From Clavelina lepadiformis (lineage: Eukaryota; Chordata; Ascidiacea; Aplousobranchia; Clavelinidae), in the NCBI RefSeq assembly GCF_947623445.1, contig NC_135240.1:5456001-5520000 (forward strand): 64,000 nucleotides of DNA, in the 5' to 3' direction. Positions 29,804 through 62,569 of the stretch are shown here, piece by piece (the first letter of the stretch is position 1; each line of letters opens with the position of its first letter). The translations under genes were made by a program, and so were the position numbers. The notes under the pieces are model-generated. The model saw nothing but the letters and a program-made list of their open reading frames with translations, made no database searches and was not told where the DNA came from.

Positions 29804-31654
29804 TTAGCAGACGTCTTTTAGCTCTCTCAAAAGCTTCTTCCAAGCGGTGACGTCACTGTTGAATCCGTCATCGATGTTAAAGGGAAGTTCTTTTCCTCCC
29901 CAGTTTAAGCCGAGTTTGGTTAGACGATTTGTAAAACAACTGGCACCCGGTTTTTCAGCAGCTGAATTATGACATCACAATAAGGTCATTATGAGCAGAA
30001 AATCAACTTTTGCTGCTGATTTCTCTTGCAAACGAGTGAATATGAACAGAAGTGACGGCAAAAAGCACATGAAGTTAGTATATAGTGACCACAAACAGAG
30101 CATTGATTATGCCCAAGTTTTTGAGCGATTTGCCGGTCAGTTAAAAAATCGGGAAATTTTCTAAACCAGACATATCTCAATCTCTCACAGCAAGTCATTT
30201 AAGAAACAGATGAACAAGCGCGACAATAATAACCGACCTGCAATACAAGTCCCGAAGCAAATTCCATCGACGGTATCGAGAAAAACGTGCACTGCGTGGC
30301 CGACGTGGAAGTTGGAATATTTGGGAGGATCAGTTTTCGGATTTCTGTTCTTGATGAATCGACGTTTACGGAAGGAAAACACAACCTTGACCTGAAAACA
30401 AGTTTCTATAATGTTTAAATAAGGGAAAATCTAAATGCAGACATAACAAAATGAACAACAACATTTACTTGTGACAACTCCTCAATGACTTACCACCACG
30501 TCACAATCTCTCGCAGCGTCTCCCACCGCGTCAAGAGAGTCGGCAAAATCCGGATGAACTCGAATTTCCACGTCATCATAACCCATCACGGCATCTGTCG
30601 GTTCGTATTCCACCAATGGGCAGTCTGTGATGTCATAAACAAGCTTCAATACTCTGCCATATTAACCGGGCTATAAGTTTGAATCATATCGGCTGTAGCT
30701 TAGTCTATAAAAAGACATTTGAGTGAAACAAACAACTGTTTGATTTGGTTCCTAATTCAATAATGAGCTTTATGCTGTCAAGTTAAACATAGTTAGCTGA
30801 AAAGCCATAAGTCTTATATAACGACCAACAATAAACTTCGACATACGAATCTTATATGACCAAAGTGACATTTACTGTCCAGTAAATGTCTTTTCACCTC
30901 CTTCTTTCTTGGTATCGCAACATTTTCTCTCTCCTGGTCCACCGCACAATCCATCCTCGTATTTGCCGTTGCAAAAGTTTGTAGAATTTTGACAAATGCC
31001 CAACGCATCCTCGCAGGGTTCGTCGTCAACGCTCCATTCTTCTTGGTTCTCCATGCCTGTGGTATAGATTATGTTTGTATAGTTATAGCAAGGTTCTAAA
31101 CCATCCAGTTATCAAAATATTTCTCCTTTGTTGTTGTGCTAATGCAGTTGTTATGCAGCTGACTCAACATATTTTAACCTTTTGTCAGTATACCCTCCAG
31201 GTATTACGGTGAGAATCACTAAAATCATTGCATATACTGTAATTGAATTCAACCGAATCACCAATCACCAATGATAGCAAGGGAATTGTTTCACTTAATA
31301 GGAATTGCCGCAAATCTTACATTGAGTGTCGCAAGCCATGCAGCATCTGAAGTGGTTTCCACCGTTGCATTGTCGTTCTGCGTCTTCCTTATCAGCCCAC
31401 CCTCCCATGCAATCGTTGGTCGGCCAATACAAGCAAGCTCCGCGGGCATCCTTGCATGATGGCTGGGCGCCTGCAAGATAATTTCCCGATCAGTAATACA
31501 TAATCTTGTACAGGGCGTATTCATACAACGCGTTAACACTAAGCGGTGGTAATAACCTAATAGTTTAGACAACTAACCACTTTTCATTATAAAATATCAA
31601 ACGCTTACCAGTTACAACAAATAGCAAGAACAGAGCAGCTATTGTCTTCAACAT
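29804..31654 (-). CDS. Secreted protein with two defensin-like cassettes and a degenerate M15-like domain, copy A
   Basis: Six exons: 31609-31654, 31321-31470, 30898-31056, 30494-30624, 30238-30391, 29804-29961, giving 265 residues. The signal peptide is MLKTIAALFLLFVVTG. Exon 2 encodes cassette 1 (GGNHFRCC) and exon 3 cassette 2 (NGKYEDGLCGG, KCC), each with six cysteines ending in CC. Exons 4-6 form a domain like M15 peptidoglycan peptidases: HPDF-SLDAVGDAA, VFSFRKRRF, YSNFHVGHAVHV and LGLNWGGKELPF. The LGLNWGG block is closest to the M15 pattern in this copy. Exon 4 ends CDVV where the others have CGVK. Convergent with BBOX1-like copy 2 and divergent from copy B. The fold assignment is inference and no activity is shown. 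Confidence 0.75.
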
Positions 31655-31755
31655 TTTTGTTCAATAGCTCTTGTAGTCTTCTTGAAGTTGAAGAAAATTT
31701 AGTTGCAAATTCGAAATGACTTGCACAGAATGACTGAGGCTTCAAACAACTCCCA

Positions 31756-31762
31756 ATATATA
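31756..31762 (-). promoter_or_regulatory. TATA box of copy A
   Basis: TATATAT on the minus strand, about 100 bases before the start codon, followed by TTGGGAG and the CATTCTGTGCAAGTCATTTC block also seen before copies B and D. Confidence 0.6.
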
Positions 31763-33084: not shown

Positions 33085-33400
33085 TATAAGTTGGGCTTTC
33101 ATTATGGACGCTTGGCCTTCGTTAAGTATTTGTACAATTTCAACATCAAATCTGTTGAATAGACACATAACTGCGGATTACTCTAAGTCAAAATGAGCCA
33201 ACATGTGACGTCACTCGCTATTTCATTAGCGATTTAACGCTAAAAAAGACACAGTGATGGCTTAAAATTGGCAGTAAAGTTGAAAAGGGTGCGACTTTCT
33301 AAATTATGTTGATAAAACCATTTCCTAAAAGCACGTCTCGTATGTCAGCCACAGTCTCTTTGATAATTGCTTGTACGTGACAAAAGACTCAGTCACGCAT
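33085..33400. repeat. Inverted repeat partner of 41630-41960
   Basis: TTTCATTAT, TTGGCCTTCGT and CAACATGTGACGTCAC blocks recur in the same order on the opposite strand at 41630-41960. In both places the sequence lies upstream of a member of the secreted family (copy A here, orphan exon C there). Confidence 0.6.
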
Positions 33401-37292: not shown

Positions 37293-37393
37293 TGGGAGTC
37301 GTGTGAAGCTTCAGTCATTCTGTGCAAGTCATTTCGAATTTGCCACTAACTCTTACTTCACTTCAAGAAGACTACAAGAGCTGTTCAAGAAAG

Positions 37394-39622
37394 ATGTTGA
37401 AGATAATAGCTGCTCTTTTCTTGCTATTTGTTGTTACTGGTAGGATGTATGCAAATGTTATGCGGAAAGTTTAGGACTGTTTGTTAAATTCAACTTAATG
37501 TGTAAAAACTATTAATAAATTTACAGTTGTACCCAAGTAAGTTTCATAACTGCTGTTGAACTTTTTTCACTGATCAAAAAAAAAAAATTACAGGCGCCGA
37601 CCAAGAATGCAGAGATGCCGGCGGAGCTTGTCTCTATTGGCCGACCAACCAGTGCATGGGAGGGTGGGCTGATAAAGACGACTCAGAGCGAAATTGTACC
37701 GGAGGAAACCACTTCAGATGCTGCATGGGTTGCGACGCTCAGTGTAAGCTTATTTTCGATCTTTGCTTGGTTCAGCATTTCACATGTCACTTTCTCATCT
37801 CATGTCAACTTTTCGTGTTGTTAAATCTGATAGATTTCGTTTCTAGGCGATTTATTTTCAATAAACCAGCCAATACTTTTAAAACGTTCATTGCAAATAT
37901 ACAATTCCCACAGGCATGGAGGAACAAGAGGACTGGAGCGTTGACGACGAACCCTGCGAAGAAGCGTTGGGAACCTGCCAAAACTCTACAAACTTCTGCA
38001 ACGGCAAATACGAGGATGGATTGTGCGGTGGACCAGAAGATAGAAAATGCTGCGATACTAAAAAGGAAGGAAGTAAGAGAGCGATTGTATGTGTTATTAC
38101 TTGTATATAATATTACCTGTTGCATTAATTTTATTTGTTTTTTCTAAGTTATACTGTTGTCGTAATATTTTGAGTAGGAATTTTCATGCACGATGTTTAA
38201 ACGATCAGACTCACCAAATTCTTCTGTTATTCAAAGTTTCAGCATTCGCTACTCTTTGAGCTTTCGCAAACATAAGCTTGCTTCTTCAGGTGTACTAAGA
38301 AAGTAGTACTATTTTCTTACTTTACTTCTTTCTACCACATTCTTAGTACACCTTAAAAAGAAAGCTTGTTTTTGTGAAAGTTTGCCGTGTAGAAGAATCA
38401 AAAATTAAGTTAACTTCAGAGTATCAACCTATGTCTTGTTTTATTTTGCTATATACTTGGTTAAAACGGTTCAGCCACCATCAGCTTCGATTCAGTGTAT
38501 TTATACTAACGCTTTTTAATATTACACTCTGTTTATTAAAACAGATTTTTATATGAATATTGTCAAACGTGTTTATTCACAGATTGTCAGTTGGTTGAAT
38601 ATGAACCTACAGCACAAGTGATGGGTTACGATGACGTGGAAATTCGAATTCATCCGGATTTTGTGACTTCTCTCGATGCAGTGGGAAATGCAGCGAGATA
38701 CTGCGGGGTTAAAGTAAGCTTTTACACCGTTGAAAGAATTTTAATGACTCAGTCTTAGGAGCAAGCTCTTGTATTTTTGACCGATGTTTGTTTCAACTTT
38801 GCCGAATTGCGAACATTTTTAGGGTTATTTGTCCAAAGTATAACTTTCTCTTTGCTTATTTGGCTTAACGCTCCAAAAACATGATTACATTTGTTCATTT
38901 TAAAATATGGGTGGATAAAGCTTGTCCATCTAGCTGAATTCATTGGAAATTTGTTTTTCAGGTCAAGGTTGTGTTTTCCTTCCGCAAACGTCGATTCATC
39001 AAGAACAGAAATCCGAAAACTGATCCTCCCAAATATTCCAACTTCCACGTCGGCCACGCAGTGCACGTTTTTCTCGAAACCATCGATGGAATTTGCTTCG
39101 GGACTTGCATTGCAGGTCGGTTATTGCTTTCATGCTTGCTTGGGATATCCTAGATGCGATACGACAGTTAATCATTAATGAAGATTTTCCGTATTTCTTC
39201 TTTATTTAAATGCGAGTTGTCACAGTACATTAAAATAATTACATGCGTTTGTTAATTGTTTAATTGTGTTAAGTGTCATTTATGCTTTGAATGTATGTTG
39301 ATGAAAGAATCTCATCAATATAAACGTGGTGGGCATCAATATCAATATAAACATCAATATAAACGTGATTATTTTTCTAAACTTGTTTTTTGTTTAAAAG
39401 ATCGATCAAGTAGTAGTTTGTATAGAATGTTTTGAAATAACTTGATTGTGATGTCACAACGTAGACGCGGAGAAACCAGGCGCTGGATGTTTCACGAATC
39501 GTCTCACATTAGCGGGCTTGAACTGGGGAGGAAAAGAACTTCCTTTCGACATCGATGACGGATTCAACAGTGACGTCACCGCTTGGAAAAACCTCTTCAA
39601 AGAGCTAAAAGACGTCTGCTAA
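37394..39622 (+). CDS. Secreted protein with two defensin-like cassettes and a degenerate M15-like domain, copy B
   Basis: Six exons: 37394-37439, 37594-37743, 37914-38072, 38583-38713, 38962-39115, 39465-39622; 265 residues. Signal peptide 1-16 (MLKIIAALFLLFVVTG). Cassette 1 (residues 17-66) has C21, C28, C36, C50, C58, C59; cassette 2 (67-118) has C80, C87, C94, C103, C111, C112. Both show a C-x6-C-x6/7-C-x8-13-C-x7-CC pattern like beta-defensins. The C-terminal domain (about 125-265) follows the M15 order: helix SLDAVGNAARYCG, strand and Arg in VVFSFRKRR (Arg170), the SNFHVGHAVH motif (188-197), and LNWGGKELPF (232-241). In canonical M15 motifs (SxHxxGxAxD, later a His) the ligands are His, Asp and His. 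Here they read Phe190, His197 and apparently Gly246, so normal zinc catalysis is unlikely. AATAAA lies at 40249. A foldback element sits in the 3' untranslated region. Confidence 0.78.
38261..38380. repeat. Hairpin-forming inverted repeat in intron 3 of copy B
   Basis: Arms of about 41 bases (38261-38301 and 38340-38380) share GGTGTACTAAGAA and AAGCTTG blocks on opposite strands, around a pyrimidine-rich loop. It is absent from intron 3 of D, E and F, so it looks like a small MITE-type insertion. Confidence 0.6.
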
Positions 39623-40259: not shown

Positions 40260-42726
40260 GACAAAAACTATCGTGTAAAGAAATGATATATGTTTGATTT
40301 TTGTTCTTCAAAAAGTAATAACCCGGTTAAAAACAATAAAAATATGTAGACAGGAAATGCTTTTGAACATTTCATGTTACAGTTGTAACGAGAATTCTCT
40401 CGTTCATGAAGCCAGGCTAAAATTTCACGTTTATGGCGAACCGCAACACCCTTTTGTGAGTATAGACAACTATTTAGTCATAGTGTGTAGCGTCTTCACC
40501 GTAATAAAACAAACCGATGATCTTTACAAAAGCCACATTTAATCGGTCACAGCCAGCCACTGACTAACCCCAGCAAAAGACAACCACAACGTTTATATTT
40601 ATCGAAGGTGTCAAATACAGTAATAAAAAGATTAAAACAAACGCTTAAAAGATGCTAAGTGATAGCAAGGGACAAGCAGAAAGGGGACCTGCCATCAGTT
40701 CTTGCATTAGGTCTATATTATATTATAATACTTCGGTGTTTACACAGGTAACTTTAATCTCGAAGCAGACTCACGCAATCACGAATTTTCTGCCCTTGGA
40801 AATATCTAGTTTTTGTCTTGTAATATAGCGCTGAAAAAGCCTCGGGCAATTTCGGTTAGGTTAACTTCTTAATTATTATCTTAGGCCAAAAGATGTGTGT
40901 GACCAAACCAATTAACATTTCAGGATGTTTTGTAAATGACCCTACCTTAATGCGTTTGATACGATCGTTTAAAATCTGAATACGTATGCACAATGCACCT
41001 GTTATAACTATTCACAACAAAGCATGACGGATATATTTTCAGTACTCAGTGACGTTTCATTCTGCCCAGTGTAATTATATAACGACTGCGGCGTCAGAAT
41101 ATATCGAGAAATAACCAAAAACTTTGTCTTCTTTCAAATTGAGTCTTGAGTCTTGTAAACATTTTCACATTGTCGAGATGTCAAATCATTTCGGGTAATT
41201 CTAAATCTCGTCCTGTATCAGTTGTTGATTTCAATCGTATTCCAAGTTAGTTAGTTTTTGACTAGAAGCCTACCTCAATTGAACAATGTTCTATTAACCA
41301 TTAAATTAAAATGTTTGAGAAACATCAAACATCAAAAATTGGAAATTGTTTGCCAAAAAAATAATGAAATGACTCAGATAAAACTAAAAAAATCTGAATT
41401 TTGTCAAAATTGCAAAAAATCGTTGAAGAAGGCAATTGCACAATGCCGAATGCATAAAACACATTGCACAATGCCTAAGGCACGTTGCACAATGCGCAAT
41501 GCATATTGCATATTGCACGTTGCACATTGAAATCAAAACATTAACCGTTGGCGCATAAGCTCAAATCATTAACGATGCTATTTTGAGCCAAAACAATTAC
41601 GAGCGACCGGAATAAAATGATCGTTGGTTTCGTTTCCAGCTTGAGAGCTGATATGTGACTTTTGAAACTTCACGAACAAGCAATTATTGACGAGACTGTC
41701 TCGTGGTTTTAGGAAATGTGTTTTTCTACATTAATTAAAAGTTTATTTTTCGTGAAACTTTACCGCCAACTTTCAGTCCCGGCTGCGTCTTTGTTTGACT
41801 TGAAATCGCGAATAAAGTGACATCACATGTTGGTTCATTTTGACCTAGAGTAACCTGTAACTACGAGTTCATTCAACCGATTAAAATTCAAATAAATTGT
41901 GCAAATGCTTGACGAAAGCCAATAAGCGAATATAATGAAACCAAACTTACGATTTCTTTTCATTGATTAAAGTAACCTGGAGTTTCCAAACCTCGAAAGA
42001 GTCTCAAACCTGGAGTTTCCAAACCTCTCGAATTGCAAATCATTCACAAAGGACACATTAATCAGCGCGTGCACACAACTCCGCCTATAACAGACCGAAA
42101 AAGGGGTGGCGTGTTTGCTAAAATCATGATAAGAACACTCAAAGAACTACGAGCAATTAGAACAAAATGCAACACTCCAAGCATCAAGGAAAACACGGAA
42201 CGATACGCCTCGAACAAAACATCTGCACATACATAATTTCGTGGTTAACGCGCTATGTGCGTGTCGTATACGGGCCTACTTCCACATTAACCTGTGTCGA
42301 AAAGTTAAATGTGTGATTAGTACTTCGCACGCACTCAAACCTAGAACAAAATACAAACCTAGTGAATATATTTTTCTATTATTACTTACAACCATCGACA
42401 GTCCAGTCATAGAAAGTTGAATGGGACACTCAATGTTGATGGTGAGCAATGAAAGCGTTTTCGTCACACATCAATGCTGGATTATCTTCAATGATTTCAT
42501 AAAAGATGGAGATGGACATCCGGTTTAGTTAATTTACCACTTTAAATTCTCTGGCGAATGACTTACTTGCTTATTTATTCTCAACTATTCTTTGATTTAA
42601 GGCCAATTTGTTTTTGAGTTTTACTCCTCGATTTATCTGCCAATCAAATCGCGCAAAAACTTGTCTGCATAATGAAACAGTTTAGTGTGCTTGTTGCTTT
42701 TTAAAGTATTTGCTTGTAATAATCTC
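40260..42726. other. Intergenic region with degraded repeats
   Basis: No supported gene. A TGTAAC-type MITE relic starts near 40385. A minisatellite lies at 41437-41530. The stretch 41630-41960 is the inverted partner of 33085-33400. Two GGAGTTTCCAAACCTC units occur near 41980-42030. Confidence 0.45.
41437..41530. repeat. Minisatellite of TTGCACAATGC-like units
   Basis: About seven imperfect units of 11-13 bases built on ATTGCACAATGC. Purely a simple tandem repeat; there are no unique spacers. Confidence 0.65.
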
Positions 42727-42746
42727 ATTGTGATGTCATAATTCAG

Positions 42747-42904
42747 CTGCTGAAAAACCGGGTGCGAGTTGTTTTACAAATCTTCTCACCAAACTCTGCT
42801 TGAACTGGGGAGAAAAAGAACTTTCTTTTAACATCGATGACGGATTCAACAGTGACGTCACCGCTTGGAAGAAACTTTTGAGAGAGCTGAAAGACGTCTG
42901 CTAA
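42747..42904 (+). pseudogene. Orphan last exon of the secreted family, copy C
   Basis: 158 bases matching exon 6 of copy A, with a normal acceptor (AATTCAG) and stop, and AATAAA at 43002. Exons 1-5 are absent upstream. The LGLNWGG block has decayed to LCLNWGE. The sequence at 41630-41960 corresponds to DNA that lies beyond the promoter of copy A, so an internal deletion removed the other exons. It is not expected to make a functional protein. Confidence 0.8.
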
Positions 42905-44194
42905 AACGTCACCTCGATTCGATGCCAAATTTCCGGCCAACACCATTAATTTAACCCGACGTTGGTTGAGCTTATCTGTGTGTTTCTGAGCATTGTTCGG
43001 CAATAAAATAAAATTATAACCGATCAATCAATGATGGGCAGTCGTGAAATAAAAACAACTTACAGTAATAATTTTTACCACACCTTCTAGATTATTATTA
43101 TTCAGGTGGTTTCCCTGTTGCTCCAGGCAACAAGAATTAAGAGGACTCCAAGTGTCTGTTTATGCAGTTATGCTACAAGTTCTAGTAAAGCGAGGCCGGA
43201 ATCGTGACCTAATCCTCATTGAGGAAAATAGTTTTATGTTTTCATAAAAGTATTGAACAAGCTTATATATTACGCAGCAGTGGGTTTAATACAACATTTA
43301 CAAGGCCATGAAACATCTTAAATTACTACCGTGTTGAGTAGTTATGTTCTAATTAAGTTATAGACTTTTTCCATGTAGACAAATCTATCGTTTTTTAAAT
43401 TAAGCCATGTTGTGCGAGTTATTTTAAATCTGTTTACTTTGTCACTGACTATCTGCTGGTAGAATACAAATCAGCAAACAACTTTCGTGTTTGAAATATT
43501 TGATGACGTCATGACGTCATGATGTCTGGTTATGATGACCCAAATCTTCAGGGTCTTTATTGTCTGGTTTCTCTCTGGCGGTTGTTGTTGCCGCCACGGA
43601 AGTTATTTATTGATTTCAAATTATGCAATTGATGTTTTAAGCTTCGACTTTAGCGTCCGTTAAGAGGTTTAAAGAAACTGCAAATTTTAAAGACTAACTG
43701 CTAATTTTCTGCTGTAACACAAAATTTTAAATTTTTAGAGACAACTGGAGAAGTTTAAGAGAATGCTTTGGTCCTAAACAACACTGATTGTGTGTAATTG
43801 CTTTTTAAATTTGTTAAGAATAATTTGGCAAGAATAAGCGAAATGGTATGTAGTGGTAGCGCAACAAAAACTCTGACCTACATGAAGTGATATCTATATT
43901 TTAATTATACACTGTAAAACTTGAATATACATATATTAACACATATATATGATAAATATACTGTGCATATATATATTAACAAACTATAATACACGCATTT
44001 CTGTGGGAGCATAAAATGTTTTACATCCAGTGGTTTTGCCGATAAAATTGCACGACTTACGGCCACAGGAAAATGTCAAGTATGGACGCAGAAAACAAAT
44101 ATTAATATTAAACATTTAATCAAACAATCGCCATATATCTGCTAAGCTTTGTTTCATTTTTGTTTTTACGAATTGATAAAACTTCATAGAAATC
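42905..44194. other. Spacer, inverted copy of 28524-29803
   Basis: AT-rich 3' flank shared by orphan exon C and BBOX1-like copy 3, with overlapping TGACGTCA palindromes at about 43503-43522 and TATATA runs near 43920-43980. No gene. Confidence 0.45.
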
Positions 44195-47100
44195 TCAGAA
44201 AAATGAACCATTCCCAGTCATTGGGGGACTGACAACTCTGCCGAGCTTCTTCGCAAGCAGCATGTAATTGTTCCGCATGAAGGCGGTATGGAGGCTAAGT
44301 TGCTTCAAAAACAAGAAATTTTAAATTGTTTTAAGCTCATATAAGGTGTTAAAAAGGCCCAAAGTGCTTCGAAATTTAATTACGACATTGTTTAGACTTA
44401 TTTCATATCTTTCATTGATTGATTATTTCATATACTTTGAAATGACGAACGCCTCCGTTGCTCTCAAATTGTGTCCTTTTGTGAACCATTCTCCTGTTGT
44501 TCATGGCAACCAAACTACCGGTTACGTGTCGGAATCGAATCTATGACATCATTATATGACGTCATTTGCACTCTACGTCATCACATAAAATTGAATAACT
44601 TAATATTATAGTTTTTCAACATACATGTAGTTCTTCTCGTTTCATGATTTCCGACAACTTCTTGTGTGCCTTGTAATATCTTGTGACGTCACTCTGACGA
44701 ACCTGCAGCCTCGGTCGTAGGTCGCCTGACCATAGGCACGACGTCACCTTAAAATATTGAAATTTCAGGTTTGTATCGCATTTCCATATTTTTGAAAGAT
44801 ACTGATATAATTGTATGGAAAAAACAAAATTTTCGCCAAATATTTCAGCATCTGATAGCCTGTACGCAACAACACCCAATTCCTATCATCATCTTTCATT
44901 CACCGGACAACATATTCCCGGCTGCAATTCTTTTACTTCGAAAATTTTTAAAGAATCGAAAAATATTGACATTTCACCCGTCTATTACTCAACAGTATAT
45001 TCTTTCTCTAACAGCGCACATAGCTGGTGAAGTTGCTACTTTCGTTCCCCATAACCACCTTGCCGTTATAGTCGACCTCGATGTGGGTTTTCTGGATTTG
45101 GAAATGTCGCTTGTTGCTGTTCACGTTCTCGTAAATCACCGGAACTTTGGTCAGAACTTTAAAATCTTCCGGCGATTCATCGCGAAGAATTTCGGCGACT
45201 TGGAACAGATCGACCATGATGCTCTCGCCTCCTTTCACACAGTCGTCGAATCTGTAAAGTAACCAAGGAGTCACTATTAAGGTGCTGATGTATGTCTGAA
45301 AAAAATTAAAACTTTGTCATTTCATCTTCAAGAGGAACTTTTGATTTAAATTAAAAGTTTACAGCTCCGCCGCAAGAATGAAAATGTATCTGCATATTAC
45401 CTGATGCAATTATGCAATATAGTTTGACCACAAGTGTCCACGTAGCGGTAATCCTGATGAAAGGGCAAGTCAACGTTGGTCTGTCCCACATTGTCTACTG
45501 CTCCGGTGTTTTTTACGTCATCAAAATAAGTCCCCTTATGTTGTCAACAACCATTAGAAAATATTACGACTGTTAAATAATGCGGTCGTTACATTTTAAT
45601 TATCTAGCGTAGCTTTATAGATTTTTGCTTCAAATCTACTCCTTTAAAAATCTAATTAACATTTTTAATGTTCATTTTTGTAATCCATGTTTATATGAAT
45701 AAAATCTGTTGCTACTGTCACAAAACTGCCCGACCGCAGTTGTTCACAGCAACGTTTTAAACTTACGTTGTAATATCCATACGGGTTGCTTTCCACAGGA
45801 CCCAGCGATTCCGCAAACTAATGAAAGATTTTTTCATTCATTTAACTTTTTCGTTTCGTTTTTACAAACATCGAATTTACAAGTTTTATGCATAAATAAA
45901 CTTTAAGACGTCACACAACCTCCATAAACAGCTCATCTTCCTTTGGAAAGTTGAGGACCTTGCAGTAACCAACCTCGAAAGTGTGATGCATAAAACTACA
46001 GTAGAGAAAAGAATGAATAAATTTACGGTGAAGGTGGCATTTGATGGTAATAGATGAAGTTGAAAATTGTTATAGTATTTTTAAAATATATGTTGTATTG
46101 TATAGTTTAAGGTTTCAAACATTTTCGGCTTTCCAATGTTTTTAACATTTAATTTCAAAATAAAGAACATTTGATGTGATGACGACATCGGTTGATGCGC
46201 ACTCGAACAAAAACTGGTCAGGATTATCTTTAATTTCGTCATAATCCACGACCGGCATCTTCTTTGGTGTTTGGGAATTTCTTGTTATGACGTCACCATC
46301 AGAAAGCTTTTCTTTAAGACATACGTCACAATAACAGTTTTCCCTCAACCAATCGTAAGGTAAGAGAGCCACGTGATTGCTTGGAACATCGTTATCAAAA
46401 TGAACTTTTAAAACTTGTTCTGAAATTGAAGTTTTGTAAAAAGAGTTTTGGCAAAAAAATATATGAAAAAGAAACATCTAAAAGTAACAAAAAATTTTTA
46501 AAATTTCGCGTTGTCACAAATCACCATGACAACCCGACATGGTCTCTCATCACCTGACTTGTTCCAAGAAGTCGAGGAAATAGTCAAGTTTTTTTTGAAA
46601 CGTTCAATGTCAATTTTGTAGAGGCCATCAGCTGAACTGTAGCAGGACGGACAGAAACAATGAAAACGAAGCCAAGAAGCTTGAAATCTGCACAATTTCA
46701 TATATTCGTATAATAACACGCCATAAAAGGGCTAATTACATGAGGATTTTTTAATTTTACTTACGCATAAAACATTGTAGATAAATCGATCATATAACTC
46801 GTATGCTCAATAAAATAACTTTTCACATGACACGTGTTATGTCATATAAACCAAAACGAAAACCGATACTTGCGTTAATATTTATAAATCCTAATTATTC
46901 ACACGCATGTGACACATCTCACGTTTGGCGTAAATCGGTGATAACTCACTCTTACACGGCTGCTAAAACCATCCTCTTACATGAATCGTGTGTTATATAA
47001 AGAGATCACGATTTTGTAATAAGAACTGAATTACGTCATCACTAGGATTAGCTCATAGTAGCCTGAATAATTCTATCTAAGCAATAAGTTACGATTTTCA

Positions 47101-47787: not shown

Positions 47788-48179
47788 GTTACGCTGAAAG
47801 TATATTCTGACTACAAAGAGAAGCAAATGCTAAAAATTGATAGTAAAGTTGATGATTCCAAACCCTTATATTCTGCAACACATTACCAAAGGTGTCCAAG
47901 TCAACAAATGTTTCAACGTCAATGGCAGTCACCCAGCATGGAATGTCTGTCATCATTGTTTTACCCGACCAATTGATTATATTCTTTTTATGTACAAAAC
48001 TTACGTATAAAGTCATAGAATTGGTGACGTAAAACAAATGTTCGTGTTTTTATGACACGAGCGATAGATTATAAAATTAAAGTTATAATTGTAATTGAAG
48101 ATTTTGTTTCCATTTAAATATGACATTTCCATAAATGTTAACTTCGTCCTTCAACTCTACACCTTCATTGACTGTCAGT

Positions 48180-49863
48180 TTTCCAAATTCCTTTCATAGC
48201 ACGGTTTCCTACGTGTGTTTGAAAATGGAGCCGGATTTTGGTCTTGTTGGACCAAAGTTGCCATTATGTAACCGAGCAAATTATTAGGTATACGCAATAA
48301 GATGATGAAGTAAATACTCCACAATGTTTAAAGGTTAATTCCCTGCAATAACCGGCTTAGACTGCGGGGCACACTCCTTCATTGTCTTCCTCGAAAGGCT
48401 TTGACTGTACGTGTTGCTGGTGCTGATCAGCCTGGCTAGGTGTTGGACTTTGCAACAAGAAGAAGTAAGCTTTGATTCGTTGTTTTTCGTTGCTTCACCG
48501 CATCTACATGAACACAATCGTCATGAAATTTTAAACTTTTCCGTATCATTTATTGAAACTGCAGTCATGAAAGGGCTAACAAGCGTTCAAGCAATTTATC
48601 GGACCGTTGTGAACAGCACATCGCTTATACATTGCTATGGTTGCTGACAAAATCGAATGATTCACTGATTTTGTCGTCACAACGCAATAACAATCCAGTG
48701 CAATGTGATAAACCAAATCGTTACTAACCTTAACATATGCTTTATTAAACTTACAATTCCGGTATCTACACTCATAAAACAAATAAAGAATCGACAAAGC
48801 AATAAATAAGTAAATAAGCAAAAGAGCTCGCCACAACAAGCAAGGCAACCAAATGCAGTGCTACAGGTTCCGACTGCACTAAAGAACACCCGCAGTGAGT
48901 AGAGAAGCGTCACATGCTTCCGGAAATAAACAATTAGTAAGGGAAGGAAGTCAAAACGACAAACTGTCAGATACCCATGCATTTTGCATTTTGCATGCAT
49001 ACATGTATGTATGAATTGGTCAAAGAAAACCAAAAATTATCACATTCTTCCCCTCTGGTTACAAAATTACACGGAAAGTGTGGGATAACATCACCAACAT
49101 AAACACATCGGATTGAAACACAAACTAACAATTTTATTCAAGATATTGAATACAGACTACAGCACATACGGTATTATGCAAAGAGTCCTGCAAATCAGTA
49201 AACACTTAAAGTATGGAACGACGCCGTATCTAGCCTATCTACAGCTTTTCGAATGCGTTCTGACCTCCTCAAGTCAAGTGCAGGTAACGACGTTGGTTGA
49301 GTAGATACTCCTTCATTCGAATCATTTTCATCATCTTTAACATCTCGCCACCAGCAGCATCAACATCCACAACAAAAATCACGGTTAACAACATCACTAT
49401 CAAGCACGTCACTGTTTTCCGGTTGGAGAAACGTATCATGCACAATGCTTTCGTCATCACCAACAGAAGAAACCATTTGCTTAGTCATCGAAGAAAGATC
49501 TTTTAAGAACACGGCGGTTTCTCTACCCGACGGGAAACGAATTGTTGCATCAGTTTCTGGGACAAATGGCAACTCTTTGTCAATCACTCCCAATGCGGCA
49601 GAAGACAAGTCGTTTTTAAGAGTGTTTAAGGATTCGAACGCCTCTTCACTAAGCTTCCGTCGACCTTCCTGCGAGCGCTCTAAAGATAGTCCGGAAACTG
49701 ACACTGCATAAAATCGCCTTAAAACCGCATAAAAAAGCAAGTAAGGATGTCTGTGCGCCAGACGCCATTTAGCGGTCATTGTAAATTTTCTCTGTTTGAC
49801 TAGTGTTCGAGCTCTTTTGGATAAAGATTGCAAAGCTTCTGCGCATGTTGCACTTTCAGTTGG
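48180..49863 (-). mobile_element. Ty3/Gypsy fossil, copy 3
   Basis: Inverted counterpart of the relics at 9240 and 22850, ending with pol pieces at 49090-49863 (EEAFESLNTLKNDLSSAALG and the basic C-terminal tail). LTR- or leader-like sequence lies at about 48180-49060. Broken, with several breaks. Its right part was copied again to 58716-59480. Confidence 0.58.
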
Positions 49864-50999
49864 TATGTTCTAATGCAAACGTCTTTAACCTTGGACAGTT
49901 GGATTAAAAATTTCCCCTATAACCGGTCACTTCCCAATAGAAAGACAATTTTCAGCCGGCAACATGGCGATTGTTACGGTTTCACACTCAATGCGTCATA
50001 TTAATAAAGTAAGAAATTTTCCGGTCCAATGCGCATTTGACGTCGATGTGGACTAGTTTGTTATTGTTTTGACGATAGTTGGTTCCAGGTCTAAGCTAAG
50101 TAGTAAGTTTTGTGTGGGTTTGAATTTTTGGTATTTTGGAGTATTTGTCTTAAAATTTTAAGCTAAAAACTTGTAAAGTTTAGGTAGATGTTATAAAAAA
50201 CTGAGTACATGGATTCTGTTCAAATTAAGACTGTAGGCAGTCATAACCTTGATCTCGTTGCAAGCCAAAATTCAGGATAGGTTTATGATGTAGTTATGCG
50301 ATGGTAGCTTCTTGATTTAACGTACTTTGCATTGAAAATCCTATCTTTTTGAATTGGGACATGACCCCTTTATACTTGTAACGTATCCAATAGCTTTGAT
50401 ACGCGTGATGTCGTCGATTTATTGTTTTTTAACTTTGACAATATATGACTCCTTAAAGGTCGTTTTTATCCCAGCCTTATACAAGCGTTTAAAATGAAGA
50501 GGCATGATGTAAGAATGTGAGTAAAATCCAACTGTACTTTATTTGATTATATGACTGCATGTGCATGCCGATTTAAGCGCACATCATTTTAAATAGTGCG
50601 CAAGCACGGAAAAATTTCTTACCAAAAAATCACTAATTACAATAGAAATGTTACAGTACAGGTGGCGCCACACACTTATCTGAAAACATGCAATATTTGT
50701 GCTAAACTTTTGTAACTTTATTTTAAAAGAAACTGTATGTTTTGCGCGGTTTTTGCTGGGTTTTTCGTTACACTATTTTTAAACTAGTGGCACGCCAAAT
50801 ATTATCACAGTTGACAATTGGTAGGTGGAGCCTCTTAGGTTTATGAATTTAAATGTCTGACTAAAATAATTTCTCTTATTTTACAGCTGTCTATTGCATT
50901 ATACATTTCTCTGACTACGTAAATATTCAATCGTTTTAAGCTTTTATTTATTGCCAATTCATTCCTGTCGAATATTTTACATCGAATTACGGTTTCGAT
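49864..50999. other. Gene-free spacer, duplicated at 59481-60629
   Basis: AT-rich. The same sequence with few differences lies before copy F. It contains the polyadenylation signal of copy D (AATAAA on the minus strand, about 50947-50952). No gene seen. Confidence 0.45.
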
Positions 51000-52975
51000 T
51001 TAGCAGACATCTTTGAGCTCTCGAAAGAGGTTTTTCCAGTTGGTGACGTCACTGTTGAATCCGTCATCGATGTCAAAAGGAAGTTCGCTTCCTCCCCAGT
51101 TCAAGCCCGCCAATGTGAGACGATATGTGAAGCACCCCGCGCCTGGTTTCTCCGCGTCTGGTTTGTGACATCACGAGAAATGTATTTTTTAAGATTGTAA
51201 TGTATATGCAAATATTGACTAATACTACTTGATCGTCATTTCACATAAAAAGCAAGTTTAAATGAACTTTGTCCGCCAAGTCTTTCTAGATTATGTTCTT
51301 TCATCAATATTCATGCTCATAACACTTAACATTTAACTTAAAATAAAACAATGTGACTTTTTTATAGTGTTGTACACTCTGACTTAAAAAAGCGAAAACT
51401 AAATTCTAAACAATTCAATTGCAAAAATTTTTTTTTATATCGTATCTAAAAAATCGCAAAAAGTATGAAAGCAATAACCGACCTGCAATGCAAGTTCCGA
51501 AGCAAATTCCATCGATGGTTTCAAGAAAAACGTGCACTGCATGGCCGACGTGGAAGTTGGAATATTTGGGAAGATCAATTTTCGGATTTCTGTTCTTGAT
51601 GAATCGACGTTTGCGGAAGGAAAACACAACCCTGACCTGAAAAGCAATTTTCCTTTAAATTCAGCTGGATAAACTTTATTGCAAAATATTACGAAATGTA
51701 GAAATAAAATCATACCATTTCCGTACAGCAAATAAAACAATGAGTGAGTTGTGATTAGTACATTTTGCCAGTGGGTGTTCTATATATTAAACAACAATCG
51801 TCCAAAACTCTGAAAGCTCGTTAATAAGCTCTTAGGACTGAGCTCTCCACGGTGTCGAAGCTTACCTTAACCCCGCAGTACCTGGCGGCGTCTCCCACTG
51901 CATCGAGAGAAGCGACAAAATCTGGATGAATTCGAATTTCAACGTCATCGTAACCTACCACGTTTGCTGTTGGTTCGTATTCAACCAACTGACAATCTGT
52001 GAGATAATAGGTAAGTTTTTGCTCATGACTTGCGGTTTGTGCGTTTTTGTGAAAAAAACATTGTTTAATCTTAAATGTCTAGGCTGTGATGTATCAATTG
52101 TAACGAGAAGGCCGACTATAAATTGGGGTAATTTTAAGAAAACTTAGTGAGCCGCATCATGTGAAATGCCTACTCAAAATATCACGGCAACCGTATTTCT
52201 CAAGAAAAACATAATGCAACAAGTAAAGACTAAATAATCCAAAACCCCTCTCTTACCTCCTTCCTGTTTAGTATCGCAGCATTTTCTATCTCCTGGTCCA
52301 CCGCACAATCCATCCTCGTATTTGCCATTGCAGAAGTTTGTCGAGTTTTGGCAGGTGCCCAACGCTTCTTCGCAGGGTTCGTCGTCAACGCTCCAGTCCT
52401 CTTGATCCTCCATGCCTGTGACAGGTAGTTTTTATCAGCTTAACTAGAGAAAATCTAAACCAACCATTTATGAGAAATTATTTGATGGCTTATGAAAATA
52501 AATCGCCTAGAAACGAAATCCGTCAGATTTAACAACACGAAAAGTTGACATGAGATGAGAAAGTGACGTGTGAAATGCTGAACCAAGCAAAGATCGAAAA
52601 TAAGCTTACACTGAGCGTCGCAACCCATGCAGCATCTGAAGTGGTTTCCTCCGGTACAATTTCGCTCGGAGTCGTCTTTGTCAGCCCACCCTCCCATACA
52701 CTGGTTGGTCGGCCAATAGAGACAAGCTCCGCCGGCATCTCTGCATTCTTGGTTCGCGCCTGTAATTTATTTTTGTTGATTAAAGATAAAAATTTCTACT
52801 CCAGTTTGCTTGAGCAGCCTACCGCTTCAAATTAATGGATATTACTTTGAAAGAAAGATAAGGCTAACAATACAGTATTCAGTATATATACGTACTATAG
52901 ACATTTTCACAACATTGCACAAATCTCACCAGTAACAACAAATAGCAAGAACAGGGCAGCTATTGTCTTCAACAT
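51000..52975 (-). CDS. Secreted protein with two defensin-like cassettes and a degenerate M15-like domain, copy D
   Basis: Six exons: 52930-52975, 52610-52759, 52257-52415, 51866-51996, 51483-51636, 51000-51157; 265 residues, uninterrupted. Signal peptide MLKTIAALFLLFVVTG. Both six-cysteine cassettes are complete (cassette 2 starts MEDQEDW). The C-terminal domain reads KIDLPKYSNFHVGHAVHV and LNWGGSELPFDIDDGFNSD, with TYRLT replacing TNRLT and NWKNLF replacing AWKNLF. Exon phases equal those of A and B (1, 1, 1, 0, 1). It lies head to tail with E and F. Its exons 3-6 are the parent type of copy F. Confidence 0.78.
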
Positions 52976-53080
52976 CTTTCTTTAATGTAGCTCTTGTAAT
53001 CTTCTTCAAGTTGAACAAAAAGTAAGTGGCAAATTCGAAACGACTTGCACAGAATGAGTAAGAAGTTAAACAGCTCCGAT

Positions 53081-55608: not shown

Positions 55609-57529
55609 TTAGCAGATGTCTCTGAGCTCTTTGAAGAGATCCTTCCAGGTGGTGACGTCGCTGTTAAGTCCGTCATCGATGTTGAAAGGAAAATCTTTTC
55701 CTCCCCAGTTCAAGCCCGCTAATGTGAGACGATTCGTGAAACATCCAGCGCCTGGTTTCTCCGCAGCTGGTTTGTGACATAACAATGAAATCATTATATA
55801 ATGTTGTACGTACACTATACCACTTGATTGTCCAATCATATAAACAACACGTTTAAATGATCTTTGTCCGTCACGGTTTATACGATTTCATCAACAACCA
55901 TAAAACAGACATAACATTCAATATAGAGCAGTGTACTGTATCTCTTTTATTGTAGCCTACTTGTGTATGGAAACTTGAATTTAAAGAAGTGAAAAATTTG
56001 TAACTCAGTCGTAAAAAGATCTCTTTTATTGTCTTTAAAAACCTCTAAAGCAGCATGAAAGCCATAACCGACCTGCAATGCAAGTCCCGAAGCAAATTCC
56101 TTCGATGGTTTCGAGAAAAACGTGCACTGCGCGGCCGACGTGGAAGTTGGAATATTTGGGAGGGTCAGTTTTTTTAAAAATAAATCGACGTTTGCGGAAG
56201 GAAAACACAACTTTGACCTACAAAGAAATTTTCTTTTCAACTTATCTGTACAAACTTCATTTCCAAATGTACAATTAAAATATTTACATTAAGCCATTTA
56301 AATGATCACTGTGTCATGACATGTCAGCTTACCTTAACCTCGAAGTAAATTAAATTAAATTTTGCCAGTGGGCGTTTTATGGATTAAACAACAATGGTCC
56401 AAAACTCTAAAAGTTCGTTAATAAGCTCTTAGGACTGAGCTCTCCACGGTGTCGAAGCTTACCTTAACCCCGCAGTACCTGGCGGCGTCTCCCACTGCAT
56501 CGAGTGAAGCGACAAAATCTGGATGAATTCGAATTTCAACGTCATCGTAACCTATTACGTTTGCTGTTGGTTCATATTCCACCAACTGACAATCTGGGTC
56601 AAAAGTTAATAAGTATAAACTTTTTTTCTCTTGGAAGTGTAAGTCAGTACCGGGTACAATACGTATAAGTGTAGCGACGTAAATGTATGGTAGCGAGCAA
56701 AGAGATTTCGAGCTACAAGTAAATGCATCAAATGATCGTAAATAAAATTTTGCTACTGTAACTACGGAATGTCCGCAAGAAATTACCGCTTCTTATGGAA
56801 AAACAAAAAACTTAATATTCCGAAAGCAAAGTTTATTATCGAGTAAATGTTCTCTCACCTCCCTCCTGTTTAGTATCGCAGCATTTTCTATCTCCTGGTC
56901 CACCGCACAATCCATCCTCGTATTTGCCGTTGCAGAAGTTTGTCGAGTTTTGGCAGGTGCCCAACGCTTCTTCGCAAGGTTCGTCGCCAACGCTCCAGTC
57001 CTCTTGTTCCTCCATGCCTGTGGCAATTGTATATTTGCAATGAACGTTTTAAAAGTATTGGCTGGTTTATTGAAGTAAATCGTCTAGAAACGAAATCTAT
57101 CAGATTTAACAACACGAAAAGTTGACATGAGATGAGAAAGTGACGTGTGAAATGCTGAACAAAGCAAAGATCGAAAATAAGCTTACACTGAGCGTCGCAA
57201 CCCATGCAGCATCTGAAGTGGTTTCCTCCGGTACAATTTCGCTCGGAGTCGTCTTTGTCAGCCCACCCTCCCATGCACTGGTTGGTCGGCCAATAAAGAC
57301 AAGCTCCGCCGGCATCTCTGCATTCTTGGTCCGCGCCTGTAATTTGTTTTTTCGATCAATGATAAAAATTTCAATTGCATTTGGCTCGGGTACAGCTTTA
57401 AATATACTAATATTTTACTTTTGAAAAGATAAAATTAAATACTACACTGCAAAACTTTTGCATAAAATTTGCAAAAATCTCACCAGTTACAACAGATAGC
57501 AAGAAGAGAGCAGTTATTGTCTTCAACAT
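55609..57529 (-). CDS. Secreted protein with two defensin-like cassettes and a degenerate M15-like domain, copy E (diverged)
   Basis: Six exons: 57484-57529, 57187-57336, 56859-57017, 56463-56593, 56073-56217, 55609-55766; 262 residues. Exon 5 is nine bases shorter than in its relatives, an in-frame loss of three residues: RRFIKNRNPKTDPP in copy B is here RRFIFKKTDPP. The motif HVGHAVH has become HVGRAVH. The C-terminus reads GLNWGGKDFPFNIDDGLNSD and ends RDIC. The signal peptide is MLKTITALFLLSVVTG. All splice sites keep GT-AG (acceptor of exon 5 TTTGTAG). It looks functional but is the most diverged complete copy. Confidence 0.75.
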
Positions 57530-57626
57530 CTTTCTTCAGCAATTGTTGTAATCTTCTTCAAGTTGAACAAAAAGTTAGTGACAAAATTGATAGGACTTAA
57601 ATGACTGAGGCCACCAACGACTGTGA

Positions 57627-57633
57627 TTATATA
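57627..57633 (-). promoter_or_regulatory. TATA box of copy E
   Basis: TATATAA on the minus strand about 100 bases before the ATG. A GAAACCGCTCCAAGC motif lies upstream at about 57705. Confidence 0.6.
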
Positions 57634-58715
57634 GGAGGGTTTATGACGTAAATTAAACAAAACTCTTGAGAATTTCAACTTCAGGAGAAGATTTGCAAAG
57701 GGTGAAACCGCTCCAAGCGCTGATAGTTTCCGATTAAGCTTTCTGCTTTACCTAAAGTTTTCAGTTATTTTTTGGTAATTGTTGTGTAAACGCTGTTCAT
57801 CATAAGACTTATCTCAAGTGAATTCGCTGTGATATAAAATATCTTGGAATAAAATTTGCAGCATTTTCGAACATTGACATACTCTCTTGCTGTTTCTATG
57901 GCTTTCAATGTTATACAGAATGGAGAATGGAGGTGCTGCATTTATTTGCTTCATTGATTTTCTGAATTTTATTTTTTTAAAACAAGAAATTTTAATCAAA
58001 TTATGAGTCGGTGGAGTCATGCTGATATCTACGTCACCGGTTAAGACACTTGTTTTTTTCAATGTTATTAAGATTTTATTTCTTTAAGTTCTTTATTTAC
58101 GCAAGTTAGTTCGATTAAAAATTGTTTACCGGAAACTATCGAAACTAAAAGAAATGGAAAAATGAGTCAAAAGGTTGTTTACATAATTTAAATTATTGCA
58201 ATTATTTAATTGCAGAGAATAACTCTGTTTGGGCAAGTTTTGCTAGAGGAGCATTTTGCAGAAATGAACGTTGACCAAAAACAATTCATGATCAAAGTTT
58301 TTCCGCTACTAAGAATAATTCGATAGCCAATGGCGCTCAAACGGTGAAACATATTTCTCCAATTTATCTGGATTAAAATATTTACAAAGCATTCTCTTGG
58401 CCTCGAGATTAACTTCAACCTGCCATATATGAACCTGCTCTCGGCTTTCGGTATTTCTCTCATAAATTGATCGAAACTGCTCAAGGCTTTTTCGTTTTCA
58501 ATTTGATTATATTCCTGATTCAAATATGACTGCCAGCAAGCTGATACTTTAAGATTAAAATCATCTACTTTTTGCAGTTTCTCAAAAAAGTTTTGTTTAA
58601 AGTATAATACAGATAATTAGTGGTCACATTCGCCCAGTTCACATGACCTTTTGACAACGTGATTTAAGCAAAAACTTCTGCAATAATACCAGCTACAATC
58701 TAAAACATAAACAAT
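57634..58715. other. Upstream region of copy E, gene-free
   Basis: It contains GGCGCTCAAACG (about 58332) and GATCGAAACTGCTCAAGGC (about 58468) with a following T run, the same motif pair seen upstream of copies D and F and, inverted, of B. Duplicated at 62674-63760. Confidence 0.5.
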
Positions 58716-59480
58716 CAACATAAACACATCGGATTGAAACACAAACTAACAATTTTATTCAAGATATCGAATACAGACTATAGCACATACGGTATTATGC
58801 AAAGAGTCCTGCAAATCAGTAAACGCTTAAAGTATGGAACGACGCCGTATCTAGCCTATCTACAGCTTTTCGAATGCGTTCTGACCTCCTCAAGTCAAGT
58901 GCAGGTAACGACGTTGGTTGAGTAGATACTCCTTCATTCGAATCATTTTCATCATCTTTAATATCTCGCCACCAGCAGCATCAACATCCACAACAAAAAT
59001 CACGGTTAACAACATCACACTATCAAGCACGTCACTGTTTTCCGGCTGGAGAAACGTATCATGCACAATGCTTTCGTCATCACCAACAGAAGAAACCATT
59101 TGCTTAGTCAACGAAGAAAGATCTCTTAAGAACACGGCGGTTTCTCTACCCGACGGGAAACGAATTGTTGCATCAGTTTCTGGGACAAATGGCAACTCTT
59201 TGTCAATCACTCCCAATGCGGCAGAAGACAAGTCGTTTTTAAGAGTGTTTAAGGATTCGAACGCCTCTTCACTAAGCTTCCGTCGACCTTCTTGCGAGCG
59301 CTCTAAAGATAGTCTGGAAACTGACACTGCATAAAATCGCCTTAAAACCGCATAAAAAAGCAAGTAAGGATGTCTGTGCGCCAGACGCCATTTAGCGGTC
59401 ATTGTAAATTTTCTCTGTTTGACTAGTGTTCGAGCTCTTTTGGATAAAGATGGCAAAGCTTCTGCGCTTGTTACACTTTC
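58716..59480 (-). mobile_element. Ty3/Gypsy fossil, copy 4
   Basis: Copy of the right part of the relic at 48180-49863 (pol pieces only), starting abruptly at the duplication junction 58716 (matching 49095). Broken, with several breaks. It moved by segmental duplication, not by retrotransposition. Confidence 0.6.
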
Positions 59481-60629
59481 AGTTGGTGTGTTCTAATGCA
59501 AACGTCTTTAACCTTGGACAGTTGGATTAAAAATTTTCCCTATAACGGGTCACTTCCCAATAGAAAGACAATTTTCAGCCGGCAACATGGCGATTGTTAC
59601 GGTTTCACACTCAATGCGTCATATTAATAAAGTAAGAAATTTTCCGGTCCAATGCGCATTTGACGTCGATGTGGACTAGTTTGTTATTGTTTTGACGATA
59701 GCTGGTTCCAGGTCTAAGCTAAGTAGTAAGTTTTGTGTGGGTTAGAATTTTTGGTATTTTGGAGTATTTGTCTTAAAATTTTAAGCTAAAAACTTGTAAA
59801 GTTTAGGTAGATGTTATAAAAAACTGAGTACATGGATTCTGTTCAAATTAAGACTGTAGACAGTCATAACCTTGATCTCGTTGCAAGCCAAAATTCAGGA
59901 TAGGTTTATGATGTAGTTATGCGATGGTAGCTTCTTGATTTAACGTACTTTGCATTGAAAATCCTATCTTTTTGAATTGGGACATGACTCCTTTATACTT
60001 GTAACGTATCCAATAGCTTTGATACGCGTGATGTCGTCGATTTATTGTTTTTTAACTTCGATAATATATGACTCCTTAAAGGTCGTTTTTATCCCAGCCT
60101 TATACAAGCGTTTAAAATGAAGAGGCATGATGTAAGAATGTGAGTAAAATCCAACTGTACTTTATTTGATTATATGACTGCATGTGCATGCCGATTTAAG
60201 CGCACATCATTTTAAATAGTGCGCAAGCACGGAAAAATTTCTTACCAAAAAATCACTAATTACGATAGAAATGTTACAGTACAGGTGGCGCCACACACTC
60301 ACCTGAAAACATGCGATATTTGTGCTAAACTGTGGTAACTTTATTATAAAAGAAACTGTATGTTTTGCGCGGTTTTTGCTGGGTTGTTCGTTACACTATT
60401 TTTAAACTAGTGGCACGCCAAATATTATCACAGTTGACAATTGGTAGGTGGAGCCTCTTAGGTTTATGAATTGAAATGTCTGACTAAAATAGCTTCCCTT
60501 ATTTTTCAGCTGTCTATTGCATTACACATTTCCCTGATTAGTGATTACGTTATTATTCAATCGTTTTAAGCTTTTATTTATTGTCAATTCATTCCTGTCG
60601 AATATTTTACATCGAATTACGGTGTCGGT

Positions 60630-62569
60630 TTAGCAGACATCTTTGAGCTCTCGAAAGAGGTTTTTCCAGTTGGTGACGTCACTGTTGAATCCGTCATCGA
60701 TGTCAAAAGGAAGTTCGCTTCCTCCCCAGTTCAAGCCCGCCAATGTGAGACGATATGTGAAGCACCCCGCGCCTGGTTTCTCCGCGTCTGGTTTGTGACA
60801 TCACGAGAAATGTATTTTTTAAGATTGTAATGTATATGCAAATATTGACTAATATAATAATATAATAACTTGATCGTCATTTCTCATAAAAAGCAAGTTT
60901 AAATGAACTTTGTCCGCCAAGTCTTTCTAGATTATGTTCTTTCATCAATATTCATGCTCATAACACTTAACATTTAACTTAAAATAAAACAATGTGACTT
61001 TTTTATAGTGTTGTACACTCTGACTTAAAAAAGCGAAAACTAAATTCTAAACAATTCAATTGCAAAAAACTTTTTTTATATCGTATCTAAAAAATCGCAA
61101 AAAAGTATGAAAGCAATAACCGACCTGCAATGCAAGTTCCGAAGCAAATTCCATCAATGGTTTCAAGAAAAACGTGCACTGCGTGGCCGACGTGGAAGTT
61201 GGAATATTTGGGAAGATCAATTTTCGGATTTCTGTTCTTGATGAATCGACGTTTGCGGAAGGAAAACACAACCCTGACCTGAAAAGCAATTTTCCTTTAA
61301 ATTCAGCTGGATAAACTTTATTGCAAAATATTACGAAATGTAGAAATAAAATCATACCATTTCCGTACAGCAAATAAAACAATGAGTGAGTTGTGATTAG
61401 TACATTTTGCCAGTGGGTGTTCTATATATTAAACAACAATCGTCCAAAACTCTGAAAGCTCGTTAATAAGCTCTTAGGACTGAGCTCTCAACGGTGTCGA
61501 AGCTTACCTTAACCCCGCAGTACCTGGCGGCGTCTCCCACTGCATCGAGAGAAGCGACAAAATCTGGATGAATTCGAATTTCAACGTCATCGTAACCTAC
61601 CACGTTTGCTGTTGGTTCGTATTCAACCAACTGACAATCTGTGAGATAATAGGTAAGTTTTTGCTCATGACTTGCGGTTTGTGCGTTTTTGTGAAAAAAA
61701 CATTGTTTAATCTTAAATGTCTAGGCTGTGATGTATCAATTGTAACGAGAAGGCCGACTATAAATTGGGGTAATTTTAAGAAAACTTAGTGAGCCGCATC
61801 ATGTGAAATGCCTACTCAAAATATCACGGCAACCGTATTTCTCAAGAAAAACATAATGCAACAAGTAAAGACTAAATAATCCAAAACCCCTCTCTTACCT
61901 CCTTCCTGTTTAGTATCGCAGCATTTTCTATCTCCTGGTCCACCGCACAATCCATCCTCGTATTTGCCGTTGCAGAAGTTTGTCGAGTTTTGGCAGGTTC
62001 CCAACGCTTCTTCGCAGGGTTCGTCGTCAACGCTCCAGTCCTCTTGTTCCTCCATACCTGTGGCAATTGTATATTTGCAATGAACGTTTTAAAAGTATTG
62101 GCTGGTTTATTGAAGTAAATCGTCTAGAAACGAAATCTATCAGATTTAACAACACGAAAAGTTGACATGAGATGAGAAAGTGACGTGTGAAATGCTGAAC
62201 AAAGCAAAGATCGAAAATAAGCTTACACTGAGCGTCGCAACCCATGCAGCATCTGAAGTGGTTTCCTCCGGTACAATTTCGCTCGGAGTCGTCTTTGTCA
62301 GCCCACCCTCCCATGCACTGGTTGGTCGGCCAATAAAGACAAGCTCCGCCGGCATCTCTGCATTCTTGGTCCGCGCCTGTAATTTGTTTTTTCGATCAGT
62401 GATAAAAATTTCAATTGCATTTGGCTCGGGTACAGCTTTAAATATACTAATATTTTACTTTTGAAAAGATAAAATTAAATACTACACTGCAAAACTTTTG
62501 CATAAAATTTGCAAAAATCTCACCAGTTACAACAGATAGCAAGAAGAGAGCAGTTATTGTCTTCAACAT
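60630..62569 (-). CDS. Secreted protein with two defensin-like cassettes and a degenerate M15-like domain, copy F (D/E chimera)
   Basis: Six exons: 62524-62569, 62227-62376, 61899-62057, 61508-61638, 61125-61278, 60630-60787; 265 residues, uninterrupted. Signal peptide and cassette 1 are E-type (MLKTITALFLLSVVTG); most of cassette 2 and the whole C-terminal domain are D-type (KIDLPKYSNFHVGHAVHV, SELPFDIDDGFNSD). Exon 3 combines both: the EEQEDW start is E-type, the downstream VDDEPCEE is D-type, with one further E-like base near 61969. The promoter region is E-type, so a D-type C-terminal domain is now under E-type control. Confidence 0.78.

Follow-up and report, generated by a model that had tools for sequence, protein, structure and literature searches.

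A divergent, apparently non-catalytic branch of the rusticalin-like family in a gene cluster of the ascidian Clavelina lepadiformis

We describe here a gene cluster on chromosome 1 of the ascidian Clavelina lepadiformis (209-Mb assembly), located in a stretch of 64,000 nucleotides (contig NC_135240.1, positions 5,456,001 to 5,520,000) that is called the window below and from whose first letter window positions are counted. The cluster consists of five complete six-exon genes, A to E, and a one-exon fragment, F. The genes belong to the already known rusticalin-like family (Daugavet 2019, 2020), of which they represent a divergent, constrained and apparently non-catalytic branch that looks new. 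Splice-aware models place them as follows.

29804-31654, minus strand: gene A, 265 amino acids, canonical splice sites; exons 31609-31654 (signal peptide), 31321-31470 (cassette 1), 30898-31056 (cassette 2), and 30494-30624, 30238-30391 and 29804-29961 (M15-like domain)
37394-39622, plus strand: gene B, 265 amino acids; exons 37394-37439, 37594-37743, 37914-38072, 38583-38713, 38962-39115 and 39465-39622
42734-42904, plus strand: fragment F, a lone copy of exon 6 with WGE replacing WGG
51000-52975, minus strand: gene C, 265 amino acids; exons 52930-52975, 52610-52759, 52257-52415, 51866-51996, 51483-51636 and 51000-51157
55609-57529, minus strand: gene D, 262 amino acids; exons 57484-57529, 57187-57336, 56859-57017, 56463-56593, 56073-56217 (9 nucleotides shorter) and 55609-55766
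60630-62569, minus strand: gene E, 265 amino acids; exons 62524-62569, 62227-62376, 61899-62057, 61508-61638, 61125-61278 and 60630-60787

These models bear out the five complete genes and one fragment counted in an initial annotation of the window. Exon sizes are 46, 150, 159, 131, 154 and 158 nucleotides in genes A, B, C and E and the same in D save for exon 5 (145 nucleotides), all five genes have GT donors and AG acceptors, and the encoded proteins are 81-98.5% identical in pairwise comparisons. Each protein is built from a signal peptide, two cysteine cassettes ending in CC and a C-terminal M15-like domain encoded by exons 4-6, and the FSFRKRR, SNFHVGHAVH and LNWGG blocks pointed out previously are present in all five copies (D reads SNFHVGRAVH). 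Exon 1, MLK(T/I)I(A/T)ALFLL(F/S)VVTG, looks like a signal peptide by eye in every copy. The proposed secretion, like the proposed tandem expansion, is supported at the level of sequence.

The five copies are maintained proteins under purifying selection. The ratio of nonsynonymous to synonymous substitution rates (dN/dS) of the M15 part is 0.15-0.16 (bootstrap 0.07-0.30) in the pairs A-B, A-C, A-E and B-C, that of the signal peptide and cassettes in the same pairs is 0.12-0.23 (widest bootstrap limits 0.04-0.50), and the four pairs with D give point estimates, without bootstrap, of 0.16-0.23 for the M15 part. Since five near-identical exon sets are combined with purifying selection, chance is excluded as the origin of the gene plan. 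Decaying pseudogenes might be suggested by fragment F and by the loss of metal ligands described below; however, the five reading frames and their splice sites are intact and dN/dS of about 0.15-0.23 is well below 1, and we therefore reject decay as an extremely improbable explanation.

The family was initially taken for an undescribed one, which does not hold, the architecture being that of the rusticalin-like proteins published in 2019. Rusticalin was found in Styela rustica, where its mRNA was seen in hyalinocytes, and its relatives are distributed among tunicates, amphioxus, coral and Trichoplax (PMC6339383). Like the window proteins, they are preproteins (248-271 amino acids) with a signal peptide, two cysteine-rich repeats and a C-terminal MD-clan peptidase domain, which is interrupted in both by two introns, reported as strictly conserved in position in the published family. 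The window branch differs in its enlarged cassette-1 loop, its more basic loop in the C-terminal domain, its tandem expansion and the absence of the catalytic and zinc residues with which full-length published homologues were reported. This absence is no bar to membership in the family because the name-giving Styela rusticalin also lacks part of the active site. Peptidase function is absent from both by prediction, but the Styela protein lacks 40 C-terminal residues, whereas in Clavelina the proteins are of full length and have substitutions beside a short deletion. Among the matches listed in our literature search, which covered few subscription papers and had preprints outside its scope, none dealt with a rusticalin devoid of catalysis other than the truncated one of Styela, and the words Clavelina, paralog and inactive are absent from PMC6339383.

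The identity of the C-terminal domain is established by transitivity, through paralogues in the same genome. Relatives found by a same-genome search were read from their DNA as G1 to G5:

minus strand, about 25-50 kb beyond the window: G1 (locus L039) and G2 (L040)
plus strand, about 25-50 kb beyond the window: G3 (L040) and G4 (L041)
5.9 Mb from the window: G5 (L042)

Each has a candidate signal-peptide exon of 46 or 52 nucleotides, predicted by a relaxed search (a stricter one fitted G1 only), and G4 lacks one cassette-2 cysteine. The SNHLVGHAID and DPVHIDD motifs are intact in G3, G4 and G5, which are called canonical below. The scan with PF13539 (Peptidase_M15_4), which covered two of these three, gave 44.8 bits (1.9e-11) for G3 and 42.3 bits (1.1e-10) for G5 against a cut-off of 25; G1 and G2 had no M15 match in Pfam. 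The alignment of the window domains with the canonical ones covers the full length of both: with few sequences per side, hhalign aligned the two M15 profiles over 145 columns at a probability of 99.8%, and BLASTP gave 36% identity (2e-33) between copy B and G3 and 34% in a second window-canonical alignment. Because the canonical paralogues pass PF13539 and align over the full length with the window copies, the domain is, by sequence, of the M15_4 or L-alanyl-D-glutamate-peptidase type, in agreement with the degenerate M15-type fold proposed in the initial annotation. Through the same paralogues it shares with M15-type peptidases the arginine motif, the GxA core of SxHxxGxAxD, and GL-WGG.

The profile comparison with M15 that had been proposed as a check thus succeeds by way of the canonical paralogues and fails in direct Pfam and PDB searches of the window proteins, which counts against this assignment: copies A and B, the two of five that were scanned, matched no M15 family in Pfam, and there was no M15 match for copy B in NCBIfam or PHROGs or for the five-copy profile in PDB. 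The matches of copy A to Synaptonemal_3 in Pfam (0.011, below cut-off) and of copy B to a PHROG of unknown function (0.29) were taken as chance. Neither a mixed nine-domain profile (ChiX on top at 0.11, then cytochrome c' at 1) nor G5 (Ply500, 2VO9, at 0.3, then an unrelated binding protein at 0.36) found anything significant in PDB, although the top match was an M15-type enzyme in each case. Over the whole genome, PF08291 had no match and PF13539 had three sub-threshold ones, at the SNH exons of G3, G4 and G5.

The zinc ligands of Ply500 are His80, Asp87 and His133, as given in the available part of PMC3315420, and PlyP56 has the same ligand pattern. The available part of PMC5778951 suggests Asp130 as the catalytic residue of Ply500, describes its equivalent in ChiX, Asp120, as essential, with replacement abolishing activity, and assigns to the arginine that matches the arginine motif a role in substrate binding in VanX and probably in ChiX. 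In gene B the corresponding regions are:

39037-39066, plus strand: former metal motif, SNFHVGHAVH (SNHLVGHAID in the canonical paralogues)
39518-39559, plus strand: catalytic-Asp and third-ligand region, LNWGGKELPFDIDD (canonical G3: LRWGGNFNRKDPVHIDD)

In an alignment of nine domains (E was left out, its domain being that of C), the window copies, unlike M15-type peptidases, are changed at all three zinc-ligand positions and at the catalytic Asp. The first two ligand positions are occupied by Phe and His, the third by Asp in B, C and E and by Asn in A and D, and the catalytic-Asp position by Leu, or by Phe in D; where the peptidases have SxHxxGxAxD and DxxH, all five copies have SNFHVGxAVH and LPFD, LPFN or FPFN. 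G2 has Tyr, Gly and Asp at the ligand positions and Phe in place of the catalytic Asp, and G1 keeps the ligands His, Asp and His and also has Phe at the catalytic position. The divergent branch thus comprises seven genes (A-E, G1 and G2), all of which have the catalytic Asp replaced by Leu or Phe and six of which have zinc ligands that are not intact, and all seven share a gap of three residues (four in G2) just before the catalytic-Asp position. Every one of the nine aligned domains has the FR-motif arginine. We infer that peptidase activity was lost in the divergent branch.

Two observations speak against this loss. In the BLASTP alignment with 34% identity, a slide by one residue puts His191 under the first canonical ligand, and A-E and G1 have Glu or Asp one place before the lost catalytic Asp, an acid that might take over its role. 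This makes it conceivable that a shifted site still works, and the proteins would then still be enzymes that cut peptidoglycan by means of a shifted acid and a permuted metal site, which in copy B would consist of His191, His197 and Asp242. His191 and His197 are indeed invariant in the five copies, and B, C and E have Asp at position 242; but A and D have Asn there, every copy has Leu or Phe at the catalytic position, and replacement of the equivalent residue is what inactivated ChiX (PMC5778951, available part), so that we consider a persisting enzyme unlikely.

The order of the changes can be proposed from a tree of ten sequences (midpoint root, long branches flagged), which separates the canonical three from the other seven with support of 100/99 and groups G1 with G2 at 94/91, below the starred level. 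If this grouping holds, and ten sequences are not proof of it, a single loss of the catalytic Asp would have taken place in the common ancestor of the seven, to be followed by two or more losses of ligands, in the window clade and in G2. The divergent genes were also remodelled. The third loop of cassette 1 consists of 13 residues in the window copies, 17 in G1 and 16 in G2, compared to 8 in G3, in G5 and in the first cassette of a lysozyme gene at locus L046. Between the FR arginine and the SN motif lies a segment with a net charge of +6 to +9 in all seven divergent domains and of +3, +3 and -2 in the canonical three; because it precedes the metal motif, this basic loop probably edges the former pocket. 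The weight of the charge difference is lessened by the fact that charge varies among the canonical set as well, G5 being acidic and G3 and G4 basic over the whole domain.

The cassettes had been described as two six-cysteine modules ending in CC, and there are two such CC-ending cassettes, although the first has eight cysteines, two of them after the CC pair. Its pattern in copy B is Cx6Cx7Cx13Cx7CC, with which the other four copies align without gaps, and it differs from the rusticalin-like repeat, Cx6Cx6-7Cx8Cx7CC, by the enlarged third loop; cassette 2, Cx6Cx6Cx8Cx7CC, fits this repeat exactly. AlphaFold2 models of single cassette exons had a mean predicted local distance difference test score of 47.8 (cassette 1) and 48.6 (cassette 2), too low for use. 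In the published family HHpred matched the repeats to the beta-defensin fold, and it could be supposed that the cassettes kill bacteria as defensins do, with the M15 domain as a mere scaffold which targets them to the wall. The cassettes are, however, acidic in all five window copies (net charge of -2 to -4 and of -8 to -10), and the isoelectric points of the mature proteins are 4.6-4.8. Membrane-active defensins are cationic, unlike these cassettes, and we regard killing of this kind as improbable. Given the acidic cassettes and the loss of the usual catalytic residues, recognition of bacteria is a likelier role for the window copies than killing.

The published N-terminal domain was also aligned with the tick carboxypeptidase inhibitor, 1ZLH, and the twin cassettes may accordingly be imagined as a protease inhibitor attached to an inert M15 remnant. 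We give this possibility little credence, since selective constraint on the M15 part is similar to that on the cassettes and since the same cassettes adjoin exons for goose-type lysozymes in Clavelina.

Cassettes of this type occur elsewhere in the genome. Two goose-type lysozyme-like genes, at L044 (4121-6569) and L046 (2860-4800), both on the minus strand, are preceded on the same strand by four cassettes (one without its first cysteine) and two cassettes, respectively; a PDB search with the assembled L046 lysozyme found those of swan and goose, down to 1.9e-64, and the L044 lysozyme was judged by eye. At L043 (3842-5884), five cassettes found by tblastn and one more diverged are followed by a hydrophobic stretch resembling a membrane anchor, and at L045 (3973-5065) a trefoil-like domain, two cassettes and a membrane-anchor-like stretch were named by eye, the cassette pair having no Pfam match. 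The two lysozymes share with the window genes the type of cassette, and with the Trichoplax lysozyme PLys (PMC12855814, in its available part) the placement of cysteine-rich repeats before a peptidoglycan hydrolase. They differ from the window genes in that the hydrolase is a GH23 glycosidase and not an M15 fold; the N-terminal domain of PLys is removed on maturation, according to the same part of that source. In fungi as well as in animals, according to the available portion of PMC7379824, the same repeats are found next to lysozymes, amidases and M15 domains.

It was proposed that the MD-clan peptidase domain of rusticalin-like proteins originated from an A500-type phage enzyme. A tblastn search of phages had no match for copy B or G3, and a search of prokaryote contigs had none for G5, a single query of a kind that reaches close relatives only. 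For copy B the plasmid search returned three records at E ~2, and for G3 a single one, from Variovorax, at 5e-5. With the phage and prokaryote searches empty and the plasmid matches few, no donor can be named. Copies of tRNA-Arg at the Ciona rusticalin-like gene were used to argue for phage-mediated transfer; as ARAGORN found 0 tRNAs in the window and at L039-L042, the idea of transfer through phage attachment at tRNA genes is not supported here.

Positions 29991-25457 of the window are an inverted duplicate of 42717-47221 (93.9% identity) with a breakpoint just upstream of gene A exon 6, and fragment F lies at the edge of the duplicate. Segmental duplications, 49095-53046 with 58716-62638 (95%) and 61891-63657 with 56851-58616 (99.3%), overlap, so that gene E is a mosaic with a D-like 5' part (99.3%) and a C-like 3' part, the M15 protein domains of C and E being identical; this suggests recent unequal exchange or gene conversion. 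Inside the inverted duplicate, between the rusticalin-like genes, 45008-46731 on the minus strand contains exons resembling a dioxygenase of the gamma-butyrobetaine hydroxylase type, with TauD (PF02668) above cut-off at 45008-45316 and GBBH-like_N (PF06155) slightly below it at 46142-46477. There is also a direct duplication of 7 kb (2489-9482 and 16111-23092, 98.5% identity) and a dispersed repeat of about 0.5-1.3 kb, probably a mobile element, in both orientations (10026-11291, 23444-24580, 47983-49653 and 58716-59276).

Taken together, we consider it fairly probable that the window genes encode secreted, non-catalytic binders of the bacterial wall or of another anionic ligand. In this scenario, the divergent Clavelina branch among the tandem rusticalin-like members would have lost peptidase catalysis, and purifying selection would have preserved its fold, its disulphide framework and the arginine on the substrate side. 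The protein would be secreted, the Styela protein being a product of haemocytes, and the remodelled pocket, now with a more basic edge loop, might together with the enlarged loop of cassette 1 bind stem peptides of peptidoglycan or another anionic surface polymer, leading to recognition, opsonisation or clumping rather than cutting. That the proteins instead regulate or act as decoys for active paralogues, or are structural components of the tunic, seems highly improbable to us, even though the genome has both active-looking and inactive-looking paralogues, and two of the three that look active are found on chromosome 1 no more than about 50 kb from the window.

More tentatively, a bacterial-type or phage-type enzyme that cuts walls, once it was fused to cysteine-rich modules of animals, may have given rise to a multigene family of non-catalytic receptors, in which the Asp was lost first and the ligands afterwards, at least twice, with remodelling of both the pocket loop and cassette 1. 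If this is true, then, considered together with the truncated Styela rusticalin, it would mean that an acquired peptidase was repeatedly turned into a protein of immune recognition or signalling. The non-catalytic peptidoglycan recognition proteins would be a parallel case, as would the N-terminal domain of Hedgehog, where the broad Hedgehog/DD-peptidase fold serves signalling, an analogy drawn by Daugavet (2019). Active-looking and dead-looking paralogues of one peptidase, for which horizontal acquisition was proposed, share one chromosome of one animal, and G1, with three ligands kept and the Asp lost, is an intermediate between them; the path from an enzyme to a possible receptor is therefore directly testable in a non-vertebrate chordate.

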